Numbered from the stretch's first letter, positions 17,660 to 54,020 are shown. The stretch: 64,000 nt of DNA from Actinomycetes bacterium (GCA_029782335.1 JAKOVA010000053.1:1-64000), one strand, 5' to 3'. Notes: generated from the sequence alone by a model not told the origin. Translations and numbers: made by a program.

Positions 17660-18213
17660 TCGGATCGGCCCCTCTAGGCGACCCGCGGGCTGCCGCAGCC
17701 GAGTCCCGACCCTGTTCGGGCGCCTCGAACGTTCCGGTGTTCTGCTTGCGGATCGAACGTCTGTCCGCTCGGGTCAGTGCCGACGGTGGTGACATCAGCA
17801 GCCCGCGTCGTCACCCCAACCAACGAAACACGAGTCGCCGAAGTGGTCCGAGCGTGCACCCCCAGCCAAGCACAACGAGTACTCGCCGCCTAGCGAGAAA
17901 CCCGCCCCACCGGGCACAAGGGCAAGGAGGATTCCGACCCCGCTGATGATCCTGTGTTGGATCACTGGTGGCGAAACTGGATCGACGACCACCACCTCCT
18001 CGCCGCCGCCTGAGCGGGCACACGGGCCAGCGACCTCTCTGCGATCACGTCAACGACGATGGTGTCCTCCTGACGCTCGCCATCCAACGCTCGGCCTGCA
18101 ACGTGGGTACATCGAACTGCAGTCCGTGATTCGAGCTCCCCGTCGCGGGCACGGCGGGCCCGAACGACCAGCCGGCCCTGCACAGCTCCTGGGACGGCCC
18201 CGCGCCATCACCA

Positions 18214-18276
18214 TGGTGCCCGGGGCGGGGTTCGAACCCGCACGCCCCCTCAGGGACCGAGGGGTTTAAGCCTTCG
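18214..18276 (-). tRNA. 3'-half fragment of a tRNA-Leu(TAA), 3' CCA encoded; putative displaced att site
   Basis: Reverse complement ...GGCTTAAACCCC...GCGGGTTCGAACCCCGCCCCGGGCACCA with no 5' half upstream. Confidence 0.75.
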
Positions 18277-41576: not shown

Positions 41577-41635
41577 CACGATCCGTGAGAAACCCCTCTG
41601 ACGTTCGTGACGTCCAGTCCGGTCTGCTGTCATCG
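41577..41635. repeat. Conserved right-end module of the left island
   Basis: Ungapped ~71% identity (42/59) to 53635-53693. Confidence 0.6.
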
Positions 41636-41691
41636 TGCCCGGGGAGAGATTCGAACTCTCACGGAGCGTGAGCTCCCGAGGGGTTTAAGCC
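41628..41691. repeat. 64-bp direct repeat (1 mismatch) with 53686-53749; att-site candidate
   Basis: tgtcatcgtgcccggggagagattcgaactctcacggagcgtgagctccc[g/a]aggggtttaagcc. Confidence 0.9.
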
Positions 41692-41962: not shown

Positions 41963-42550
41963 CTACGGCCTTACGTCGGGCCGGATCCCGCTCCAGAAGA
42001 GCGGCAGGATCTGCCCACTGACCTCGTCGGCATCGAGGTGGTTGTCGATGACGAGGCTTCGGAGACCGATGACCGTTACGGCCCCGTAGAGCGCCGTCGC
42101 GGCGATCTCGGGGTCGACCGGACGGAGCGTGCCGTTCGCCGCGCCGAGCGCTAGGAGTCGGCGGACCGGTTCGTGGAAGGCGGCGTTGATCCCGGCGGCG
42201 AGATCGGGAAGCTTGCCCGCTTTGCCGAGGTTGGCCGTGAGTAGCTGGGCGGTGGCGGGGAACTCGCCGAGGTGTGCGAGTTGGGCTCGCACGACGGCGG
42301 CGAGCCGGTCGGGGATGGCAGCGTCTGGATCCTCCGCAGCGGCGACGGCGTCGGTGAGCCGCTCGAGCATTCGAGTCAGGAGGAACTGGAGGATCTCGTC
42401 CTTGGATGAGAAGTAGTAGTAGAGCGTTGCGCGTGGGATGCCGCTGGCCTCGGCGATGTCCTCGGTGCGAACCTCGTCCCAGGAGAGCGCCAGCTCCCCG
42501 GCGGTGGCCAGGAGCTTGTCGGCCATCGGCGCGGGGACTGATCGGCTCAT
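41963..42550 (-). CDS. TetR family transcriptional regulator
   Basis: TAGELALSWDEVRTEDIAEASGIPRATLYYYFSSKDEILQFLL. Confidence 0.88.
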   Translation of the reverse strand: MSRSVPAPMADKLLATAGELALSWDEVRTEDIAEASGIPRATLYYYFSSKDEILQFLLTRMLERLTDAVAAAEDPDAAIPDRLAAVVRAQLAHLGEFPATAQLLTANLGKAGKLPDLAAGINAAFHEPVRRLLALGAANGTLRPVDPEIAATALYGAVTVIGLRSLVIDNHLDADEVSGQILPLFWSGIRPDVRP

Positions 42551-42602
42551 CGGTTGCGGTCCTTCACTTGTGCCTCGGGCCGGAACCTCGGGCGCCGCCC
42601 GG

Positions 42603-42619
42603 TTGGACGACGCGTCCAA
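42603..42619. promoter_or_regulatory. 17-bp palindromic operator TTGGACG-ACG-CGTCCAA
   Basis: Perfect arms, upstream of tetR; resembles 46508-46524. Confidence 0.65.
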
Positions 42620-42621
42620 GC

Positions 42622-43119
42622 CTACGAGTCGTGGTGGGGCTGGTCGAACGCCGCGGCCCTCGTGTCGCGAAGCGGCACGACCAGGACCGGACGATCGCTG
42701 GTTTCCGCGAGGCGGATCGCCGTGCAGCGGAACCTGCCGATGGACGTCTTGTGGTCGTGTCGGCCGACGACGACACAGGCTGCCCGGTGGCGGTGCGCGG
42801 CGTCGGCGAGCGCGGTCGCTGCGTCGCCGGCGCGGATCTCGAAGCTCCAGTCCAGGTCGGCACCGGCGAGGGCGAGCTGGCAGTCGAGGTGACAGCGATC
42901 TGCCAGCTCTTCGCGGGTGAGCGCGACCGCCCCCGCAGCGGTCGGGACGGCGATGGCGAAGCCGGATGTCGCGGGGATGACGTGCACGACCACGAGATGG
43001 GTGTGGCGCTGCGTGGCGAGCTCCAACGCTCGCTCGAGCGCGGGGAGCTCGTCGGAGCCGCTGCGCATCCCGACGATCACGGGATTGAGCGCGGATGGGT
43101 GCCGGACCGGGCGGCTCAC
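42622..43119 (-). CDS. Universal stress protein (UspA) family
   Basis: VIVGMRSGSDELPALERALELA...ACVVVGRHDHK...RPVLVVPL. Confidence 0.8.
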   Translation of the reverse strand: MSRPVRHPSALNPVIVGMRSGSDELPALERALELATQRHTHLVVVHVIPATSGFAIAVPTAAGAVALTREELADRCHLDCQLALAGADLDWSFEIRAGDAATALADAAHRHRAACVVVGRHDHKTSIGRFRCTAIRLAETSDRPVLVVPLRDTRAAAFDQPHHDS

Positions 43120-44738
43120 CGGATGACTGGCTCGTCCTCGGGAGCGTGCCGGTGGAGCCGTGGCTCCGCTTCCGCAGCGGTCTTGGGCCCGCGCAGCGCG
43201 GTGAAGCCAGCGGCGGCCAGGCAGACGCCGGCGCCGAGCAGCAGCGCCGGGGGCATCCCGTCGACGAACGCAGACCTCGCGCCCGCTGCAAGGGCAGCGC
43301 CGTTCTCGCCGAGTTGCCCTGCGACCGCGAGAGCGCCGCCGATGCCTTCGCTGACCGGTTCGACGATCTCACCGGGCAGCCCGGCGAGATCAGGCTCGAT
43401 GTTGGAGCGGTACGCGGCGTTCAACACGGATCCGATGAGCGCGATGCCCACCGCCCCTCCCATCTCCCGGACGGTGTCGTTCAGCGCCGATGCCACCCCT
43501 TGCTTCTCCTCGGGCAGCGATGAGGTGATCGCCGCGGTCGACGGGCTCATCGCGAGGCCGACGCCTGCGCCGAGGATGAGCACACCTGGCAAGACGCTGA
43601 GGTACCCGCCGGTGGGATCTGCCATGACGGCGAAGAGACCCAAGCCCGCCGCCATGGCCAGCATTCCGGTGACGAGCGTCCTGCGGAATCCGATTCGTTC
43701 GGCGATCGTCGGCGCAATGGTCGACAGCGGCATCATGACTGCTGCCATCGGGAGCAGACCGGTCGCGGCTCGCAGCGCCGAGTAGCCCAGCACCGCCTGG
43801 AGGTACTGCACGAGCACGAGGAACATCGAGAACATCACGGCGAACACGACGAAGAGGTTCACCGACCCTGCGGCGAGGCCACGGATCGCGAAGATCCGGA
43901 CGTCCAGCAGCGGATGCTCTCTCCGCAGCTCGACCACGATGAACGCAGCGGCACCGAGTAGTCCGGCAGCGGCTGCGACGATGGTGATCGGCGCAGTCCA
44001 GCCCTGTTCCGGTCCTTCGTGGATGGCGAGCACCAGGCCGCCGACGGCGACGATGGACAGCAGCGAGCCTGCGATGTCGAAGCCGGTGTCGACGTGCTCG
44101 ACCGAGTGCGGCACGACGACGACGGTGAGCACGAACGACACCGCCGCGAGCGCGACGGGCAGCGCGAAGACCCACGGCCAGGTGGCGTTGTCGATGATCG
44201 CTGCGGAGACGAACAACCCGATGATCCCACCTGCGCCAGCGAAACCGGCCCAGGTTCCGATCGCCTTGGCCTGCTGCGCGGCGGGGAAGCTGGTGGTGAT
44301 GACCGACAACGTGACGGGCATGACCATGGCTGCAGCGAATCCGGCGGCGACTCGAAGCGCGATCAGTGTGGTCGGGTCCGTCGCGAAGGCAGCGGCGATG
44401 TTCGTCGCGGCAAATGCGACCAGGCCGATGAGCAGCACCGGCTTGCGGCCCCACCGGTCGCCGATGGCTCCGACGGGCATGAGGAGCGCTGCGAGTGCCA
44501 GCGTGTACCCGTTGATGATCCAGAGCAGTTGGCTCTGCGACGCGCCGAGGTCCTCGGCCAAGGCCTGCTGGGCGACGTTGAGCCCGGAGACGGATGCGAC
44601 GACGGCGACGAGCGCCACGCACATCGCCGCGAGGATCAGCCGCCGGCGAACGGGGTCGACGATGACGACGTCATGGAGGTCGCTGGGGTCCTGGTCCACG
44701 TTCGCTGCGGGAGCGGGGTCTGGATGGGCGGCGGGCAT
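43116..44738 (-). CDS. MFS transporter (DHA2, 14-TM-like)
   Basis: SQLLWIINGYTLALAALLMPVGAIGDRWGRKPVLLIGL; 4-nt overlap with the usp gene. Confidence 0.88.
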   Translation of the reverse strand: MPAAHPDPAPAANVDQDPSDLHDVVIVDPVRRRLILAAMCVALVAVVASVSGLNVAQQALAEDLGASQSQLLWIINGYTLALAALLMPVGAIGDRWGRKPVLLIGLVAFAATNIAAAFATDPTTLIALRVAAGFAAAMVMPVTLSVITTSFPAAQQAKAIGTWAGFAGAGGIIGLFVSAAIIDNATWPWVFALPVALAAVSFVLTVVVVPHSVEHVDTGFDIAGSLLSIVAVGGLVLAIHEGPEQGWTAPITIVAAAAGLLGAAAFIVVELRREHPLLDVRIFAIRGLAAGSVNLFVVFAVMFSMFLVLVQYLQAVLGYSALRAATGLLPMAAVMMPLSTIAPTIAERIGFRRTLVTGMLAMAAGLGLFAVMADPTGGYLSVLPGVLILGAGVGLAMSPSTAAITSSLPEEKQGVASALNDTVREMGGAVGIALIGSVLNAAYRSNIEPDLAGLPGEIVEPVSEGIGGALAVAGQLGENGAALAAGARSAFVDGMPPALLLGAGVCLAAAGFTALRGPKTAAEAEPRLHRHAPEDEPVIR

Positions 44739-44864
44739 TGTGCGCTCCTGCAGGGGTGGGCCATTCGATCCCGGCTGGATCAATCGGCAGACGAACAATA
44801 TGACACGACGCCATCTATACGACACTCTGTTGCACTTCGAGCACGCTTCGCTACGATCCCGGGT

Positions 44865-45464
44865 GTGACGACGACTGAGGTTCTCCACATCGACCCTCGG
44901 GTGATCCGGACCCGAGTGGCGGTGCTCACCGCCGCCCGCGAGGTGCTCGTCGACGAAGGTTGGGAGGGGGTGACGGTGGCTCGGGTTGCTGAGCGCAGCG
45001 GTTACGCACGGACGACGCTGTACCGGCACTGGCCCCAGCGACTCGACCTGCTGCGCGACCTGATCCGCGAAGAGGCCGCCGTCGCACACTCTGTGCCGGG
45101 AGGCGAGCTGCGTGCGGACCTCGTCGCCGAGGTAGAGGCGTTCCGCTCAGCGATGACCGCTGCCGGGCTGGGACGGGCGATGATCGCGATCGGCCAGCAC
45201 GCACGGGAGGATCCCGAGGTGGCCGAGCTCAACAGCGCGTTGCGGGTCGAAGGCTCCCGGGTGCTCGACGAGATCATCGAGCACGGGATCACACGAGGGT
45301 TGCTTCGCCCCGATGCGGGTGCCGGCGCGGCGGTGTCCATGCTGGTGGGGCCCGTGCTGTTCCGGTACCTGTTCGAGCCCGAGGGCCTCACCGCGAGCTT
45401 CGTCGAAGGTGTCGTCGATCGTTTCATCGAGGCGTTCGCAATCGACGTCGAGGGCGAACAGTGA
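44865..45464 (+). CDS. TetR family transcriptional regulator
   Basis: AAREVLVDEGWEGVTVARVAERSGYARTTLYRHWPQRLDLL. Confidence 0.87.
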   Translation: MTTTEVLHIDPRVIRTRVAVLTAAREVLVDEGWEGVTVARVAERSGYARTTLYRHWPQRLDLLRDLIREEAAVAHSVPGGELRADLVAEVEAFRSAMTAAGLGRAMIAIGQHAREDPEVAELNSALRVEGSRVLDEIIEHGITRGLLRPDAGAGAAVSMLVGPVLFRYLFEPEGLTASFVEGVVDRFIEAFAIDVEGEQ

Positions 45465-46483
45465 AGCTGGACCTGATGACCGCAGGAATGCCGCTGCGCG
45501 CAGTGCAGCAGCTCGCTCGTCATGCCACCGAGGCCGGGTTCGCTGGGCTCGTCATCACCGAAGCCGGGCGAACCCCCTATCTGTCGGCGGCCGCCGCTGC
45601 CCTCGCGGCGGATCTCGACATCCTGACCGGGATCGCAGTGGCGTTCCCGAGGAGCCCGATGGTCACCGCCCAGGTCGCGTGGGAGTTGGCCGAGGCCAGC
45701 GACGGTCGATTCCGGCTCGGGCTCGGGACCCAGGTGCGCGCCCACATCGAACGGCGCTACGGGGTGGACTTCGATCCGCCGGGCCCGCGGATGCTCGACT
45801 ATCTACTCGCAGTCCGGGACTGCTTCGCGGCGTTCCGGACCGGCGAGTTGTCCCACCACGGCGAGTTCTACGACCTGTCGCTGTTGCCACCGATGTGGTC
45901 GCCGGGCCCGATCAGCGCCCCTGACCCGCCGATCGACCTCGCAGCGGTGAACCCGTGGATGCTGCGCGTCGCAGGCGCCCACGCTGACGGCGTCCACGTG
46001 CACCCGCTCAACACGTCGACGTACCTACGCCAGACCGTGCTGGCGAATCTCGCCACCGGGGCAGCCACAGCGGGGCGCTCCGTCGCGGACCTCGAGGTCA
46101 TCGTGCCGGCCTTCATCGTCGCGGGTGACTCAGACGACGACCGGTCACGTTGGCGCGAGTTGGCCCGGATGCAGATCGCCTTCTACGGGTCGACGCCGAA
46201 CTACTCGTTCATCTTCGACCAGATCGACCGGCCCGGAACGACCGCGGCGTTGCGTGAGCGACAGCGGCAGGGCGACCTCGCCGGGATGGCAGCACTGATC
46301 GACGACGACATGCTGGCCGAGTTCGTCATCGAGGGCTCCTGGTCCGGCATCGCAGACGCAATCGCGGACCGCTACGACGGCATCGCGACGCGCGTCGTCA
46401 ACTACTTCGGCGCGATCGCCTGGGCCGACGAACCGGTGTCGATGCGCCCATGGCGCGACATCACCCGAGCGCTCGCCACCTGA
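45461..46483 (+). CDS. LLM-class F420-dependent oxidoreductase (TIGR03617-like)
   Basis: FAGLVITEAGRTPYLSAAAAALAADLDILTGIAVAFPRSPMVTAQVAWELAEASDGRFRLGLGTQ. Confidence 0.88.
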   Translation: MKLDLMTAGMPLRAVQQLARHATEAGFAGLVITEAGRTPYLSAAAAALAADLDILTGIAVAFPRSPMVTAQVAWELAEASDGRFRLGLGTQVRAHIERRYGVDFDPPGPRMLDYLLAVRDCFAAFRTGELSHHGEFYDLSLLPPMWSPGPISAPDPPIDLAAVNPWMLRVAGAHADGVHVHPLNTSTYLRQTVLANLATGAATAGRSVADLEVIVPAFIVAGDSDDDRSRWRELARMQIAFYGSTPNYSFIFDQIDRPGTTAALRERQRQGDLAGMAALIDDDMLAEFVIEGSWSGIADAIADRYDGIATRVVNYFGAIAWADEPVSMRPWRDITRALAT

Positions 46484-46507
46484 GGTCGCCGCACCCACGG
46501 CTTTTGG

Positions 46508-46524
46508 TTAGACGCTGTGTCTAA
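46508..46524. promoter_or_regulatory. 17-bp palindromic operator TTAGAC-GCTGT-GTCTAA upstream of the MMPL gene
   Basis: Perfect 6-bp arms; 12/17 positions match 42603-42619. Confidence 0.65.
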
Positions 46525-46534
46525 ACTCTGCGTC

Positions 46535-48763
46535 ATGTCACCCCCGGGCCTGTCGCAGAAGTCGACGCTGTACCGACTCGGCGGATTCGCGGCCGGCAAT
46601 CCGTGGCGTGTCCTGGCGGGGTGGGCGGTCGTGATCGCGCTGGTCGTGGGGCTGTGGGCGGCGTTCGGCGAGGGCACCTCGGATGACATCACGATCCCCG
46701 GCATGCCGTCGCAACAGGCGCTCGATCTGCTCGAGGAGCGGTTCCCGGAGCAGGCGGGTGGTCGGGCGGTCGCGGTGTTCGCCACGAGCGACGGCACAAT
46801 GTCGGACCCGCCCAACGCGGAGGCGGTCAGGGCGACACTCGATCGAATCGGCCGACTCGACGGGGTCGCGCAGGTGATCGAGCCGTTCGGACCAGCGGCG
46901 TCGCTGCTGCAGTCACCGGACGGCACCGTGGCGTACGCACAGATCCTCTATGACCGGGGAGCCAGAGAGGTCACACCGGAGCAGATCGACGATCTGTTCG
47001 CCACCGGTGATCCCGCCCGCGAGGCTGGCCTCGAGGTCGGCTTCGGCGGGCAGGTCGTGGAGCGGACAGAGCCCGAACAAGCTCGAACTGCCGAGCTCGT
47101 GGGTCTCGCCGTCGCCGTCGCCGTGCTACTGATCGCGTTCGGGTCGGTCATCGCCATGGGCGCACCGCTGCTCGGCGCGCTGTTGGGTGTGGGCGTCGGC
47201 ATGCTGTTGATAGGACTACTTGCGTCGGTCATGGACGTCATGTCGGTCGCGCCCACGATGGCGACGATGATCGGCATCGCCGTCGGCATCGACTACGCCC
47301 TGTTCGTCGTCACCCGCCATCGCCAACACCTGGCGTTCGGTCATTCAGTCGTCGAGTCGGTCGCGCTCGCGACCCATTCGGCGGGGCGGTCGGTGATCTT
47401 CGCCGGGGTCACGGTGGTGATCTCGATGCTCGGCCTCACGCTGGTGGGCATCCCGCTGATCGCCAGCATGGGTGTTGCGGTGGCGATCACCGTGTCGGTG
47501 GCGGTGCTCGTCGCCATCACGTTCCTTCCCGCACTGCTCGGCCTCATCGGAACGAACATCGACCGCCTCCGCACACCCGGGATCAAGGTCCGCGCTGAGA
47601 TCGACCCGGATTCCCCGACGGCATGGAGTGCCCGCTGGGCGCGGAGCGTGACCCGACACCCGTGGCGAGCGCTCGCGATCGGGGTCCCGCTACTCCTCGT
47701 GCTCGCCATTCCCGCGGCCAGCCTGCGTACCGGGTGGCCCGACGCACGCAACCGCCCACAGGACTCCCCACCGCGCGTCGCGTTCGACCTGCTCACCAGA
47801 GGGTTCGGGATCGGAGCCAACGCCCCGCTGCTGGCCGTCATCGACCTCGACGACGCAGAGCCGGATGCGGCCGCCACGATCTCGGGAGCGCTCGCGGAGC
47901 TCCCAGGTGTCAGTCAGACGACGCCGCCGCTGCCCAACGAGGAGGGCACTGCGGCCATCGTGCAGGTGACGCCCAACAGCGGCCCTGAGGATGAAGCCAC
48001 AGAGGACCTGGTCCGGGCCATCCGGGACCAAGGCGCCCTCGAGGAGAGCACCGGCGCTCGCATCGACGTCACGGGTGCCACCGCGTTCTACATCGACATC
48101 TCCCAGCGGCTCAACGATCGCCTGCCGATCTTCATCGCCGCCGTGGTGTCGCTCAGCTTCCTGCTGCTCACCGCAGTGTTCCGAGCGCCGGTCGTCGCGG
48201 CCAAGGCTGCGGTCATGAACCTGCTCGGCATCGGCGCCGCCTACGGCGTCGTCGTGGCTGTCTTCCAATGGGGATGGGCCAAAGATCTCATCGGGCTGGA
48301 ACAGACCGTGCCCATCATCTCGTTTCTTCCGATGGGACTCTTCGCAGTGCTGTTCGGCCTCTCGATGGACTACGAGGTGTTCATCCTGTCGCGCATCCGT
48401 GAGGCGTGGATCGTCGACCACGACAACGAGTCGGCCATCGTCCACGGACTGTCAGCCAGCGCGCGCGTCATCACCGCGGCTGCAGCGATCATGTTCGCGG
48501 TGTTCGCCAGCTTCGTCGCCGGCGACAGCGCCGAGATCAAGATGTTCGGGCTCGGCCTCGCCGTGGCGGTCCTGCTCGATGCCACCGTCATTCGCATGCT
48601 CGTCGTGCCGGCGTCGATGAAGGTCCTCGGTAACGCGAACTGGTGGATCCCGAACTGGCTCGACCGGCTGCTGCCCAACCTGGACATCGAGGGCTCCGAA
48701 GCCGACGAAGAGCTCGACCCCCCGCCACCGACACCTCACCCTACGGAGACAGCATCAGCGTGA
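46535..48763 (+). CDS. MMPL/RND family transporter
   Basis: GTSDDITIPGMPSQQALDLLEERFPEQ...IGIAVGIDYALFVVTRHR...FGLSMDYEVFILSRIREAW. Confidence 0.9.
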   Translation: MSPPGLSQKSTLYRLGGFAAGNPWRVLAGWAVVIALVVGLWAAFGEGTSDDITIPGMPSQQALDLLEERFPEQAGGRAVAVFATSDGTMSDPPNAEAVRATLDRIGRLDGVAQVIEPFGPAASLLQSPDGTVAYAQILYDRGAREVTPEQIDDLFATGDPAREAGLEVGFGGQVVERTEPEQARTAELVGLAVAVAVLLIAFGSVIAMGAPLLGALLGVGVGMLLIGLLASVMDVMSVAPTMATMIGIAVGIDYALFVVTRHRQHLAFGHSVVESVALATHSAGRSVIFAGVTVVISMLGLTLVGIPLIASMGVAVAITVSVAVLVAITFLPALLGLIGTNIDRLRTPGIKVRAEIDPDSPTAWSARWARSVTRHPWRALAIGVPLLLVLAIPAASLRTGWPDARNRPQDSPPRVAFDLLTRGFGIGANAPLLAVIDLDDAEPDAAATISGALAELPGVSQTTPPLPNEEGTAAIVQVTPNSGPEDEATEDLVRAIRDQGALEESTGARIDVTGATAFYIDISQRLNDRLPIFIAAVVSLSFLLLTAVFRAPVVAAKAAVMNLLGIGAAYGVVVAVFQWGWAKDLIGLEQTVPIISFLPMGLFAVLFGLSMDYEVFILSRIREAWIVDHDNESAIVHGLSASARVITAAAAIMFAVFASFVAGDSAEIKMFGLGLAVAVLLDATVIRMLVVPASMKVLGNANWWIPNWLDRLLPNLDIEGSEADEELDPPPPTPHPTETASA

Positions 48764-49473
48764 ACCTCGACGAACCACCAGCACAACTCGCCGCCCGCAC
48801 AGCGCTCGCGTCCGCAATGCAGCGATTGGGCCACTCGCTCGTCGCCCGCCAGGTCGACACCGACCTGGCGGTCGAGCTCGCAGAGGTCGCCGAGCGCTAC
48901 ACCTCCACCGTGCAGCGTGGTGCACCGCGGGACCGGGCCACCGAGATGCTCTCCAGTCCTCGCGTCACCGCAGCGCTCAACGGGAAGCGAGCCATCATCG
49001 ACGACGGTGCGGAGATCGACCTGTTCAGGGACTCGTTCGTCTCCGGGCGGACCAACCCCATGGGCATCGGGGTCCGGGTCGTTCGCGACGGCGACACCGC
49101 CGTGGCCACCACCACCCTCGGACCGGCGTTCGAGGGGGCGCCCGGCCGAGCCCACGGCGGCGCCGTCGGCGCCATCCTCGACGAGACCATGGGGTACCTG
49201 TTGCCGATCATCGGCGAGATGGCCTACACCGCCAACTTGTCCATCGACTACATCGCACCAGCACCGCTGGGTGTCGAAGTGTCCTTCACCGCGCGGCTTC
49301 GCGACCGGGCGGACCGCAAGCTGTGGATCGAAGCCGTCGGCGAATCCGCCGATGGCGTGTTCGTGCGAGCTGAAGCGCTGTTCCTCACCGTCGACCTGTC
49401 GCGCTTCACCAATGCGTCCGCCGAAGGCGACAGCGTCAACGCGGCGGACGCCCAGGCGGTGGAGCTTCCATGA
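48760..49473 (+). CDS. PaaI-like (hotdog) thioesterase
   Basis: AHGGAVGAILDETMGYLLPIIGEMAYTANLSIDYIAPAPLG; GTGA overlap. Confidence 0.82.
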   Translation: MNLDEPPAQLAARTALASAMQRLGHSLVARQVDTDLAVELAEVAERYTSTVQRGAPRDRATEMLSSPRVTAALNGKRAIIDDGAEIDLFRDSFVSGRTNPMGIGVRVVRDGDTAVATTTLGPAFEGAPGRAHGGAVGAILDETMGYLLPIIGEMAYTANLSIDYIAPAPLGVEVSFTARLRDRADRKLWIEAVGESADGVFVRAEALFLTVDLSRFTNASAEGDSVNAADAQAVELP

Positions 49474-50366
49474 CCGTCGCTGCGCGCCCCGAGCGGTTCG
49501 ACCTCCCGGGCGCCGACCTGCGATTGGCCGCGGACCGCTGGGGTCCCCGCACCGACGATGTTGTGGTGTTCCTGCACGGTGCGGGCCAGAGTCGCCGGGC
49601 ATGGGACGACGCCGCAGAAGCGGTTGCAGCGATCGGCTGGCACGCCATCACCGTCGACCACAGGGGCCATGGTGACAGCGAATGGCCGATCGAGGCCGAC
49701 TACGACTGGGACCGCTTCGCCGACGACGTGATCGCCATCGTCGAGCACCTCGGCACGCCACCCGTCCTCGTCGGCGCGTCACTGGGCGGGATGTCGGCGC
49801 TGTTGGCGCAGGCTCGAACTGACGAACAGCTCTTCCGAGCGGTGGTTCTGGTCGATGTCACCCCGCGGATGGAACTCGGGGGCGTACAACGCATCGTCGG
49901 TTTCATGGCAGCGCACCCTGACGGCTTCGACTCCCTCGACGCCGCGTCAGCGATCATCGCTGAGTACACCGGGCGACCTCGGCCGCCGACACCGGACGGT
50001 CTGCGCCAGGTCCTCGCTCATGGCTCCGACGGCCGCTGGCGGTGGCGCTGGGACGTCCGCTTCCTCGAAGGACGCGCCGACATGATCATCGGCGGCGACA
50101 TCGAAGCGTTGCGGGAGATCCAGGTGCGCGAACGGCTCCACGAAGGTGCTCGCCGCATCAAGGTTCCCGCGCTCGTCGTGCGCGGCGCCGAGAGCGACCT
50201 CGTCTCCACCGAAGGCGTCCGAGAGTTCGTCGACGCGGTACCGGGCGCCCAGTACGTCGACGTGGCCGACGCCGGTCACATGGTCGCCGGGGACCAGAAC
50301 GACACCTTCACCGCAGCGGTCCTCACGTTCCTGTCCGAAGTGCGCACGGGCACGACCAGACGATGA
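49470..50366 (+). CDS. Alpha/beta hydrolase
   Basis: VVVFLHGAGQSRRAWDDAA, DHRGHGDSEW, VGASLGGMSALL. Confidence 0.87.
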   Translation: MTVAARPERFDLPGADLRLAADRWGPRTDDVVVFLHGAGQSRRAWDDAAEAVAAIGWHAITVDHRGHGDSEWPIEADYDWDRFADDVIAIVEHLGTPPVLVGASLGGMSALLAQARTDEQLFRAVVLVDVTPRMELGGVQRIVGFMAAHPDGFDSLDAASAIIAEYTGRPRPPTPDGLRQVLAHGSDGRWRWRWDVRFLEGRADMIIGGDIEALREIQVRERLHEGARRIKVPALVVRGAESDLVSTEGVREFVDAVPGAQYVDVADAGHMVAGDQNDTFTAAVLTFLSEVRTGTTRR

Positions 50367-51256
50367 CGACGGACCCCGCTGCGCCGACCGTGCACCGGAT
50401 CCCCACACGCAACGGCGACGAGCTGCGCGTGCTCGACTGGGGCGGCAGCGGACCACCTGTGGTGCTACTGCACCCGAACGGGTTCTGCGGAGGACTCTAC
50501 GAACCGGTCGCCGCAACGCTGCTCGGGACCGCCCGAGCGGTCGCGATTGACCTGGTCGGCCACGGGGGCAGCACGACGCCGACAGACCCGACGCGCTACC
50601 GGTTCGCGTCGATGGCCAACGACGTGCTCGACGTGCTCGACCACCTCGACCTCTGCGGCATCGCCGGCGTCGGCGGATCACTCGGGGGAGCAGTTGCGGT
50701 CCTCGTCGACCAGCTCGACCAAGGGCGGTGGTCACAGCTCCTGCTCGCCGAACCAGTCGCGTTTCCCCCAACACTGTTCAGAACCACGACGCCCAACCCG
50801 ATGGCGGTCGCTGCTCGTCGCCGCCGCCGGCTATTCGCCACCCGAGCCGAGATGCACGACCAGTACTGCGACAAGGCGCCCCTGTCCCAACTCAGCGACG
50901 ATGCGCTCGACGCCTACCTGCGATGGGGGACCGTCGATTGCGGCGACGGTGTGCATCTCGCGTGTGACCCCGACACCGAAGCGCGCATCTTCGAGATGTC
51001 TGCCACTTCGTACGGCGCCCCCGCCGCCTGGGAACACCTCGAGCACCTCGCATGCCCCGCTGTGATCGTCGCCGGAGAGGACACCTTCCTGCCCGCCATC
51101 TTCGACCAGCAGGCCGAACGGGCCAACGCCACATTGCTCACCCTTCCCGGCGGGCACTTCGTGCTGCACGAGGACACCCGCCGTACCGAAGCACTCATCA
51201 GAGAGCACGTGCTCACCCAACCAGCCCCATCCCCAGCAATCGGAGGATCCCGATGA
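50363..51256 (+). CDS. Alpha/beta hydrolase
   Basis: VVLLHPNGFCGGLYEPVA, DLVGHGGS, GVGGSLGGAVAVL (GGSLGG elbow). Confidence 0.87.
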   Translation: MTTDPAAPTVHRIPTRNGDELRVLDWGGSGPPVVLLHPNGFCGGLYEPVAATLLGTARAVAIDLVGHGGSTTPTDPTRYRFASMANDVLDVLDHLDLCGIAGVGGSLGGAVAVLVDQLDQGRWSQLLLAEPVAFPPTLFRTTTPNPMAVAARRRRRLFATRAEMHDQYCDKAPLSQLSDDALDAYLRWGTVDCGDGVHLACDPDTEARIFEMSATSYGAPAAWEHLEHLACPAVIVAGEDTFLPAIFDQQAERANATLLTLPGGHFVLHEDTRRTEALIREHVLTQPAPSPAIGGSR

Positions 51257-52335
51257 ACGCACCACTTCGCTACACGCGCGAGGAGCTCATGAGCGACCCT
51301 CCCTACGCCGAACGCATCGAGCGCAACGGAGTCCGCTTCCACGGCGGCTACGACACCGACGGCACCTACCTGCCACCCAGGTCGCTGCACCGAGCAGCAG
51401 CCATCGACGCATGGACACGCCAGCTCGAGGCCGCAGGACACCCGACCAGCGTCGTCGACACCGACGCGGTCAAACGGTCGTTCGTCCCCAACGCCACCCA
51501 GGCGAAAATGCTGCTGAGTAACGACGCGACCGGCGCCATGACCCGGATCCTGACCCTGGTCGGCGTCGTCGAGGGGTTCGGCAACGACGGCATCAAACTC
51601 ATCCCCGTCGTCGACCTCGCCGAGCACATCGTCGAACCAACCGACGACACCTGCCTCGGTCACCTGTTCAACGGCCTGCTCGAAGCACACGGCAACGACG
51701 AAGCAGGAACCGACGGAGAAGTAGGACACGACCAGATGTGGTTCGCCGTGCGCGACGCAGCGCTCGCCGACCCGCCCGTCACGCTCGACATGTTCCAGGA
51801 GCTCCCGATCGCCCCGCCTCCCGGCTACAGCGGCCCCGCAAGCCCAGCCGCAGAAGCGATCAGCGTCGGATCGATGATCGGCGGAATGCGCGACGACGTC
51901 TCCCCCGAGCTGCAGTTGCTGGTGAGAGCCATGGTGCAGATCCTCGTGATCGAGCTGCTCGCCTATCACACCTTCGCCTGGGCCTCGGATGTGCTCGGCG
52001 ACCCGTCGTGCAGCCATGACACCGCGTTCGCACGCACGACCATCGACCACATCCGCGCCGACGAGGACCTCCACGTCGGCTACCTGCAATGCGCCCTAGC
52101 GGAACTTGCCACCATGACCGTACGTCGCACCGACGGCGGAACCGTCCGTGGTGCCGATCTCGTGGTCGCCGCATCTCGCGCCGCGTTGGAGAACCAGACA
52201 GGCGACCGGTTCGACCGCGTCCTCGCGTACCGGCTCGCGCAGGTGCGCACCGAGCTCGAGGACCACCCCGATGGCGCCCGCCTCACCGCCGAGTTCGACG
52301 CACTGGCCGACAGCCCCGCAGAAGCTCTCGCATGA
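51253..52335 (+). CDS. Uncharacterised protein, possibly all-alpha diiron-type (LLEAH, VIELLAYH, RADEDLH motifs)
   Basis: 360 aa, RBS ggagga, ATGA overlap with the upstream hydrolase gene; no confident family. Confidence 0.55.
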   Translation: MNAPLRYTREELMSDPPYAERIERNGVRFHGGYDTDGTYLPPRSLHRAAAIDAWTRQLEAAGHPTSVVDTDAVKRSFVPNATQAKMLLSNDATGAMTRILTLVGVVEGFGNDGIKLIPVVDLAEHIVEPTDDTCLGHLFNGLLEAHGNDEAGTDGEVGHDQMWFAVRDAALADPPVTLDMFQELPIAPPPGYSGPASPAAEAISVGSMIGGMRDDVSPELQLLVRAMVQILVIELLAYHTFAWASDVLGDPSCSHDTAFARTTIDHIRADEDLHVGYLQCALAELATMTVRRTDGGTVRGADLVVAASRAALENQTGDRFDRVLAYRLAQVRTELEDHPDGARLTAEFDALADSPAEALA

Positions 52336-52363
52336 ACGACCTGCCTCACGGATGGAGCGAACG

Positions 52364-53566
52364 ATGAGCCGACCGCCAGTGACGGACTGGGAGACCGACT
52401 TCGATCACCTCGACCCCGCCTTCGTCGCCGACCCGTACCCGATCTATGACCACCTTCGCGAGCAGTGTCCGATCGCGCACACCGACCGCTATCACGGCGT
52501 CTGGATCCCGACCCGATACGACGACCTCGCAGCGATCGCCCATGACCATCAGCGATTCTCGTCGCGCACGATCCTCATCACCGACCGTGCCGAGTCACCA
52601 ACCGACCTCGGATTCCACGCTCCCCCGATCACCGAGGCGCCGCCCTATCACACCGACATCCGGCGCATCCTCCTGCCCCTGTTCTCCCCGGCCGTTGTCG
52701 CCGAGTACGAACCGATCACCAGGACGATCGCGTCGGACCTGATCGACGCCTTCGTCGACGATTCCGGCTGCGACGCTGCTGCGGCGTACGCCCAACACGT
52801 ACCCATCAAGGTGATCACCCGGCTGCTCGGCATCCCCGACAGCGACCACGCGCAGTTCCGCGACTGGATCCACCGTCTGGTTGAACAGAGCCCGCTCGCG
52901 AGCGACAGCACCTACGACGCGATCATCGAGATCGGCGGCTACCTCAGCAGTCACATCGAACAGCACCGGACGCACCCGGCCCACGACGTCATCACCCACC
53001 TCCTCGACGCCCGACTTCCCGATGACCGGCTACTGACCCGAGACGAGATCCTCGGCGTGTGCATCCTGTTGCTCCTCGCCGGGATCGACACCACCTGGTC
53101 TGCGATCGGCTCGTCGCTACTCCACCTCGCCACCCACCCCGACGACCGGCACCGGCTGCGCACCGAGCCCGACCTCATCCACACCGCCACCGAGGAGTTC
53201 CTACGCGCGTTCGCGCCCGTCACGATGGCCCGAGAGGTGATCGAAGACACCGAGATCGGCGGCTGCCCGATGCGCAAAGGCGACCGGGTCCTGCTGCCGT
53301 TCCCCTCCGGCAACCGGGACCCCAACGCGTTTGATCGACCCGACGATGTCGTCCTGGATCGGCAGGCGAACCGCCACTTCGCCTTCGGCGTCGGGATCCA
53401 CCGATGCCTCGGCTCCAACCTCGCCAGAATGGAACTCCGGGTAGCGATCGAGACCTGGCTCGAACGCATCCCCGAGTTCGAACTCACCGACCCCGACGCC
53501 GTCACCTGGTCCGCAGGCCAGGTGAGAGGACCGCGCCACCTGCCACTCACGTTCACCTACCGGTGA
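52364..53566 (+). CDS. Cytochrome P450
   Basis: LLLLAGIDTTWSAIGSSLLHLATHPD (I-helix), EEFLRAFAPVTMARE, FAFGVGIHRCLGSNLARMEL heme loop. Confidence 0.93.
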   Translation: MSRPPVTDWETDFDHLDPAFVADPYPIYDHLREQCPIAHTDRYHGVWIPTRYDDLAAIAHDHQRFSSRTILITDRAESPTDLGFHAPPITEAPPYHTDIRRILLPLFSPAVVAEYEPITRTIASDLIDAFVDDSGCDAAAAYAQHVPIKVITRLLGIPDSDHAQFRDWIHRLVEQSPLASDSTYDAIIEIGGYLSSHIEQHRTHPAHDVITHLLDARLPDDRLLTRDEILGVCILLLLAGIDTTWSAIGSSLLHLATHPDDRHRLRTEPDLIHTATEEFLRAFAPVTMAREVIEDTEIGGCPMRKGDRVLLPFPSGNRDPNAFDRPDDVVLDRQANRHFAFGVGIHRCLGSNLARMELRVAIETWLERIPEFELTDPDAVTWSAGQVRGPRHLPLTFTYR

Positions 53567-53634: not shown

Positions 53635-53693
53635 CACCGTCCGTGACAATCCCCTCTGCGGACAGTGCCGCCTGGTGTGGTTTGGTGTCATCG
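53635..53693. repeat. Conserved right-end module of the right island
   Basis: ~71% identity to 41577-41635. Confidence 0.6.
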
Positions 53694-53749
53694 TGCCCGG
53701 GGAGAGATTCGAACTCTCACGGAGCGTGAGCTCCCAAGGGGTTTAAGCC
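53686..53749. repeat. 64-bp direct repeat with 41628-41691; att-site candidate at the intact tRNA
   Basis: One mismatch over 64 bp. Confidence 0.9.
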
Positions 53750-53779
53750 CTCTGCGTCTGCCAGTTTCGCCACCCGGGC
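53694..53779 (-). tRNA. tRNA-Leu(TAA)
   Basis: GCCCGGGTGGCGAAACTGGCAGACGCAGAGGGCTTAAACCCCTTGGGAGCTCACGCTCCGTGAGAGTTCGAATCTCTCCCCGGGCA; 7-bp acceptor stem, long variable arm, TAA anticodon. Confidence 0.93.
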
Positions 53780-53869: not shown

Positions 53870-54020
53870 CACGCGAGTGGTGGGATAGCCCCGACAACTC
53901 ACCACACCGTCGGAGGGAAGCCGGTGCGATTCCGGCGCTGTCCCGCAACCGTGAGCACGGCTCCCGCCCGGAGACGTGTCAGCCGGAGCGCTCCGTGGCG
54001 TGATCGCTTCGCAACCGTCC
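53870..54020 (+). promoter_or_regulatory. Cobalamin riboswitch
   Basis: gggaagccggtgcgattccggcgctgtcccgcaaccgtgagcacggctcccgcccggagacgtgtcagccgg matches the B12 riboswitch core; upstream of ECF transporter genes; bounds approximate. Confidence 0.85.

Follow-up and report, generated by a model that had tools for sequence, protein, structure and literature searches.

The breakdown of camphor and cineole follows a known order, in which a P450, a dehydrogenase, a Baeyer-Villiger monooxygenase and lactone opening come one after another (PMC4097962). The camphor and 1,8-cineole clusters, with P450cam, P450cin and the LLM-class diketocamphane monooxygenases (PMC4097962, PMC6352141), resemble the locus described here in combining a P450 with an LLM-class flavoenzyme and lactone-type hydrolases. 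In contrast to these clusters, our locus has no dehydrogenase, ferredoxin or flavin reductase, its LLM enzyme falls in TIGR03617, and an MMPL transporter, a thioesterase and an unannotated protein, called P0007, are present in addition. Islands that target tRNA genes and carry catabolic genes have also been reviewed (PMC9960961), and the present block is likewise bracketed by repeats of a tRNA 3' end, holds cargo of the degradation type and appears to have been transferred horizontally. It differs from them in having neither integrase nor conjugation genes, in lying in tandem with a probable second island, and in residing in a host class that is hardly studied. The cassette MMPL has the MMPL domains and both Asp-Tyr pairs of MmpL3-type RND transporters (PDB 7k7m, 8qkk), yet it is 748 aa long, reaches 226 bits against the MmpL3 (trehalose monomycolate exporter) model NF052608 with its cut-off of 1400, and is encoded among oxygenase genes. 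P0007 resembles the diiron helical-bundle oxygenases (ferritin-like AurF, CmlI and R2lox; haem-oxygenase-like CADD, PolF and UndA; PMC13108848) in its helices and in invariant Glu/His residues spaced E / E..H / E / ExxH, but it has no sequence match or significant fold match to them, and its N-terminal part is unique.

The window, which is the whole 64-kb stretch of DNA that was analysed, contains a 12.06-kb island (41.6-53.7 kb) at the 3' end of a tRNA-Leu(UAA) gene (53693..53779, minus strand), the integration target. The island is bracketed by a 50-bp exact direct repeat at 41,628-41,677 and 53,686-53,735, the sole long direct repeat in the window, and 63 of 64 nt are identical when the repeat is extended (left copy to 41691). 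The right copy takes in the 3' part of the tRNA-Leu gene and the 7 nt that follow it, while the left copy is an att-like, displaced 3' end. DNA homology to G243, a genome of another order (MAG FR_1), runs from 41,974 to 53,555, just inside both repeats, so that on either side the repeat lies no more than about 0.3 kb from the end of the homologous block. Because this homology spans the region between the repeats, the unit is about 12 kb long and includes three minus-strand genes to the left of the cassette: a second TetR-type regulator (41963..42526; Pfam TetR_N), a universal stress protein (42622..43080; Pfam Usp) and a DHA2/EmrB-type MFS efflux permease (43116..44738; TIGR00711 above cut-off). 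The permease gene is divergent from the cassette TetR and stands beside TetR also in loci L046, L105, L047 and L052. An earlier, preliminary description had placed the island at 44865-53566; an island with its own regulators was indeed found there, and its true extent is larger.

No integrase gene was found in the island and no tyrosine integrase on the window contig; the eight tyrosine-recombinase matches in the window's genome are all on other contigs. The island no longer has an integrase of its own, or never did, and presumably depends on a recombinase acting in trans. In G014, a genome of the same genus that is 75% complete and lacks P0007, the right flank adjoins tRNA-Leu, and the left flank was not found there; in the relatives searched, left-flank DNA was not found beside tRNA-Leu, and this flank gave no information on an empty site. 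The G+C content of the island is close to that of its surroundings, making composition uninformative on foreignness, and no att copies of the tRNA-Leu type were found at the G243 and G140 cassettes. Further to the left, at 18,212-18,275, a weaker fragment that resembles tRNA-Leu suggests a probable second island in tandem, from this fragment to the left repeat (18212-41691), where a P-type ATPase, two cation-efflux genes, CopC-CopD and a MerA-like flavoprotein (metal resistance) are encoded. Directly to the right of the tRNA-Leu gene, a cobalamin riboswitch (53916-53975) precedes energising-module transporter genes. In G006 (L162), a tRNA-Leu(UAA) gene at 384-468 is accompanied, 1.7 kb off, by a 29-nt exact repeat of its 3' end (2138-2166), which hints at a possible family-wide hotspot at this site. 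Within L154 4814-7169 of G014, a second tRNA-Leu(UAA) gene adjoins an MMPL gene that is distantly related to the cassette MMPL.

The eight cassette genes, all on the plus strand, were found by sequence check at the positions given before, and their families were assigned by Pfam/NCBIfam profile search. A TetR regulator (44865..45464; Pfam TetR_N and TetR_C_11), probably with a leaderless GTG start, is followed by an LLM-class flavin/F420 oxidoreductase (45461..46483), an MmpL3-like MMPL/RND transporter (46535..48763; Pfam MMPL), a hotdog thioesterase (48760..49473), an enol-lactonase/esterase-like alpha/beta hydrolase with the nucleophile motif GASLG (hydrolase 1, 49470..50366), another alpha/beta hydrolase with the motif GGSLG (hydrolase 2, 50363..51256), P0007 (51253..52335) and a cytochrome P450 (52364..53566). 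For the MMPL gene, the frame first given was 46517-48763, and the ATG at 46535 is a better start. The five 4-nt overlaps (GTGA at 45461 and 48760; ATGA at 49470, 50363 and 51253) and the gap of 28 nt between P0007 and the P450 were borne out by the sequence. Chance does not account for these overlaps: each G243 copy (L046, L105) retains the overlap sequence of TetR/LLM as well as that of MMPL/thioesterase, and G140 (L047) also retains the latter.

The preliminary description had regarded these genes as one tightly coupled cassette. The LLM-MMPL gap, however, holds a palindrome, TTAGACgctgtGTCTAA (TTAGAC-N5-GTCTAA), at 46508..46524, which overlaps a -10-like TAAACT (46521..46526, plus strand) located 8 nt ahead of the ATG at 46,535, a probable leaderless start. 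The same layout of palindrome and -10-like element is conserved ahead of MMPL in L046, L105 and L052, and in L047 the motif lies upstream of the first gene in a P0007-MMPL-thioesterase run. A scan of the 877 kb of fetched loci for the shorter form TAGAC-N5-GTCTA gave three occurrences, all of them at cassette promoters. Since the conserved palindrome overlaps a leaderless promoter ahead of MMPL, there are probably two transcription units, TetR-LLM and MMPL-to-P450. The palindrome is a candidate operator to which, we infer, the cassette TetR binds. A literature search for a TTAGAC/GTCTAA operator found no precedent; Rv3160c (PMC7810876) is a known case of a TetR repressor blocking a -10 region next to the gene of an oxygenase.

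The order TetR-LLM-MMPL-thioesterase-hydrolase-hydrolase-P0007-P450 is identical in G243, where the cassette shows numerous frameshifts of the kind that error-prone reads produce, and the P450 gene carries an IS3-like insertion. The insertion spans L046 11880-13140 and L105 12610-13890. As it falls at the P450 I-helix motif, an intein was considered and rejected; stops interrupt the insertion, and its reverse strand resembles, by eye, an IS3-type transposase. The two G243 copies were also rejected as independent and were counted once, as they align over 18.9 kb with 86% DNA identity and share the P450 insertion; this is the pattern expected of a single locus that was assembled twice, or of two strains. 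Outside G243 the exact eight-gene order is not repeated, and the gene set, whole or partial, is reshuffled at four further loci. A second G243 locus (L052) has all eight families in a different order, plus an integrase; G025 and G369 have P0007, the P450, LLM, both hydrolases and an integrase adjoining tRNA-Met; and G140 has TetR, P0007, MMPL, the thioesterase and a related P450, with genes for an acyl-CoA dehydrogenase and a Baeyer-Villiger-like flavin monooxygenase next to them. Genes for an FAD-type Baeyer-Villiger-like monooxygenase and an acyl-CoA dehydrogenase also adjoin a hydrolase-2 homologue in G369. The preliminary description had staked its proposal on neighbouring genes being co-conserved, and this check, when run, spoke for co-conservation, with the order kept in G243 and the set recurring in reshuffled form elsewhere.

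Protein identity between the window and G243 is 79% for TetR (61-79% across the G243 and G140 loci), 83-93% for MMPL, 89% for the thioesterase, 80-85% for hydrolase 1 and 67-87% for P0007. Hydrolase 2 (60%) and LLM (49-81%, a value affected by frameshifts) are not clearly above rpoB. The rpoB proteins of the two genomes are about 75% identical, compared with 79-93% for most cassette proteins, and this closeness of most cassette proteins relative to rpoB supports horizontal transfer of the cassette, as does the lack of P0007 in the same-genus genome G014. A separate 9.7-kb stretch (L013 1-9726 and L052 9232-18954) is 99.7% identical between G025 and G243, which belong to different orders, and ends in an integrase gene; it may reflect recent transfer or misbinning and was kept out of the main evidence.

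The LLM protein scores 314 bits against TIGR03617 (cut-off 278), and enzymes of that family carry annotation as F420-dependent. The label F420-redox, used in the preliminary description, stands as a family name only; the sole CofD-type match in the window's genome, an assembly that is 75% complete, is YvcK-like. CofD or CofE was found in the relatives G243 and G369. In a PDB search the nearest solved structures to LLM were Mer reductases, and no diketocamphane monooxygenase was among the matches. The LLM class includes type II Baeyer-Villiger monooxygenases (PMC5395668). For the cassette enzyme, the role of an F420 dehydrogenase or reductase is just as possible. The name PaaI given earlier to the thioesterase does not hold, as the protein is closer to thioesterases of the THEM4/THEM5 type (phmmer 6e-11) and matches the PaaI (hydroxyphenylacetyl-CoA thioesterase) model TIGR02286 weakly, with 21 bits against a cut-off of 119. 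The P450 has the hallmarks of its family, namely the haem-Cys motif (FGVGIHRCLG), ExxR and the I-helix AGxDTT (here AGIDTT), and its nearest solved structures are an ancestral CYP125 and P450cin. For the MMPL transporter, the closest solved structure is that of MmpL3.

P0007 has no relative by sequence in Pfam, NCBIfam or the PDB. Of 395 Acidimicrobiia genomes sampled, 46, or about one in nine, have a homologue; outside the class, a sample of 347 genomes from the phylum gave only two matches, with E about 1e-4, and plasmids gave none. P0007 thus founds an unannotated, previously undescribed family that is common in Acidimicrobiia. At some ten loci the gene immediately after P0007 encodes another LLM-class protein, about 450 aa long. 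In 34 P0007 sequences, down to ~31% identity, E107, E150, H159, E234, E271 and H274 are invariant, and all six map to predicted helices or their margins. AlphaFold models of two subfamilies are both helical bundles, with pLDDT of 91 and 90. Foldseek searches with these models gave no significant match (best E about 0.4), but diiron proteins (CADD, PolF, CmlI, HrmI, AurF, R2lox and bacterioferritin) are over-represented among the upper matches. Because of the six invariant Glu/His residues and the two confident models, our best guess, as yet unproven, is a diiron enzyme, with metal binding predicted only. The reshuffled cassette in G025 and G243 includes an AurF-like diiron gene (L013 5959-7065). 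It is a tentative and rather doubtful suggestion that P0007 is a new O2-activating diiron family confined to Acidimicrobiia and an obligate partner of LLM flavin/F420 oxidoreductases or P450s, with the island as the mobile form of a two-enzyme oxidation system.

The reading that we favour, at a probability of about 0.45, is that the island at tRNA-Leu is an inducible oxidation-and-export module that opens an alicyclic ring. TetR, seated on the palindrome over the MMPL promoter, would block RNA polymerase until a ligand, either the substrate or an acyl intermediate, releases it. The P450 would hydroxylate a hydrophobic alicyclic or terpenoid-like compound, and LLM, perhaps with the putative diiron enzyme P0007, would oxidise it further by dehydrogenation or a Baeyer-Villiger-type oxygen insertion. 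The two hydrolases would then open a lactone or ester, the thioesterase would trim acyl-CoA by-products, and MMPL and MFS would carry the toxic substrate or the acyl product across the membrane, with the direction of transport predicted as well. Ring opening is supported by the presence of P450cin among the nearest solved P450s and by the Baeyer-Villiger-like and acyl-CoA dehydrogenase neighbours; the likeness of LLM to Mer reductases rather than to Baeyer-Villiger enzymes, and the annotation of its family as F420-dependent, argue against it. Lacking a dehydrogenase, a ferredoxin and a CoA ligase, the island is not a complete pathway. The preliminary description had suggested a xenobiotic, a terpenoid or steroid-like compound or an acyl compound as possible substrates; alicyclic or terpenoid oxidation is the best-fitting role, and the module probably breaks down or disarms a ring-shaped compound.

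Acyl-lipid export is at least as good a fit for the thioesterase and the MmpL3-like transporter. This would suit a biosynthetic island whose product is an acyl or polyketide-like lipid, with the P450, LLM and P0007 as tailoring enzymes, the hydrolases and thioesterase acting in its release and MMPL as its exporter; MmpL3 is a lipid exporter, and the thioesterase is of the acyl-CoA type. In G237 (L108), a hydrolase-2 homologue with a P450 and another two thioesterase genes as neighbours points the same way. Such a role is a real rival, though a less likely one, as the island has no synthase, ligase, acyltransferase or carrier protein and the neighbours at related loci are catabolic (acyl-CoA dehydrogenase, flavin monooxygenase, MaoC, SDR). 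We regard as a rival of similar strength a detoxification and efflux island, in which the oxygenases and esterases inactivate a xenobiotic or antibiotic and MFS and MMPL pump it out, with no pathway for a carbon source. Its two exporters, one of them passing the EmrB-type drug-efflux model, its three regulators or stress genes and the metal-resistance genes of the neighbouring island agree with that role, but a P450, an LLM, two hydrolases, a thioesterase and P0007 exceed the needs of a simple resistance unit, and known resistance enzymes are absent from the island. An ordinary chromosomal operon, with the 50-bp repeat as a piece of tRNA that some unconnected rearrangement had left behind, would suit the missing internal integrase, the unremarkable G+C and the lack of an observed empty tRNA-Leu site, but is improbable given the match of repeat and homology ends, protein identity to another order above that of rpoB, and the further tRNA-Leu-like fragment at 18.2 kb.

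The unit itself is real: a bounded, mobile and co-conserved module in an Acidimicrobiia bacterium, whose structure goes beyond what had been claimed for it and whose chemistry is less certain. It is a horizontally transferred island next to a leucine tRNA gene, in which oxidation, hydrolysis and export genes are co-conserved. A gene list has been turned into a bounded mobile unit with a predicted operator, and the substrate, the regulator and the mobility of the cassette thereby become testable. Acidimicrobiia are known largely from metagenomes and have hardly been studied, and P0007 adds to this class an undescribed protein family that is found repeatedly beside LLM oxidoreductases or P450s.
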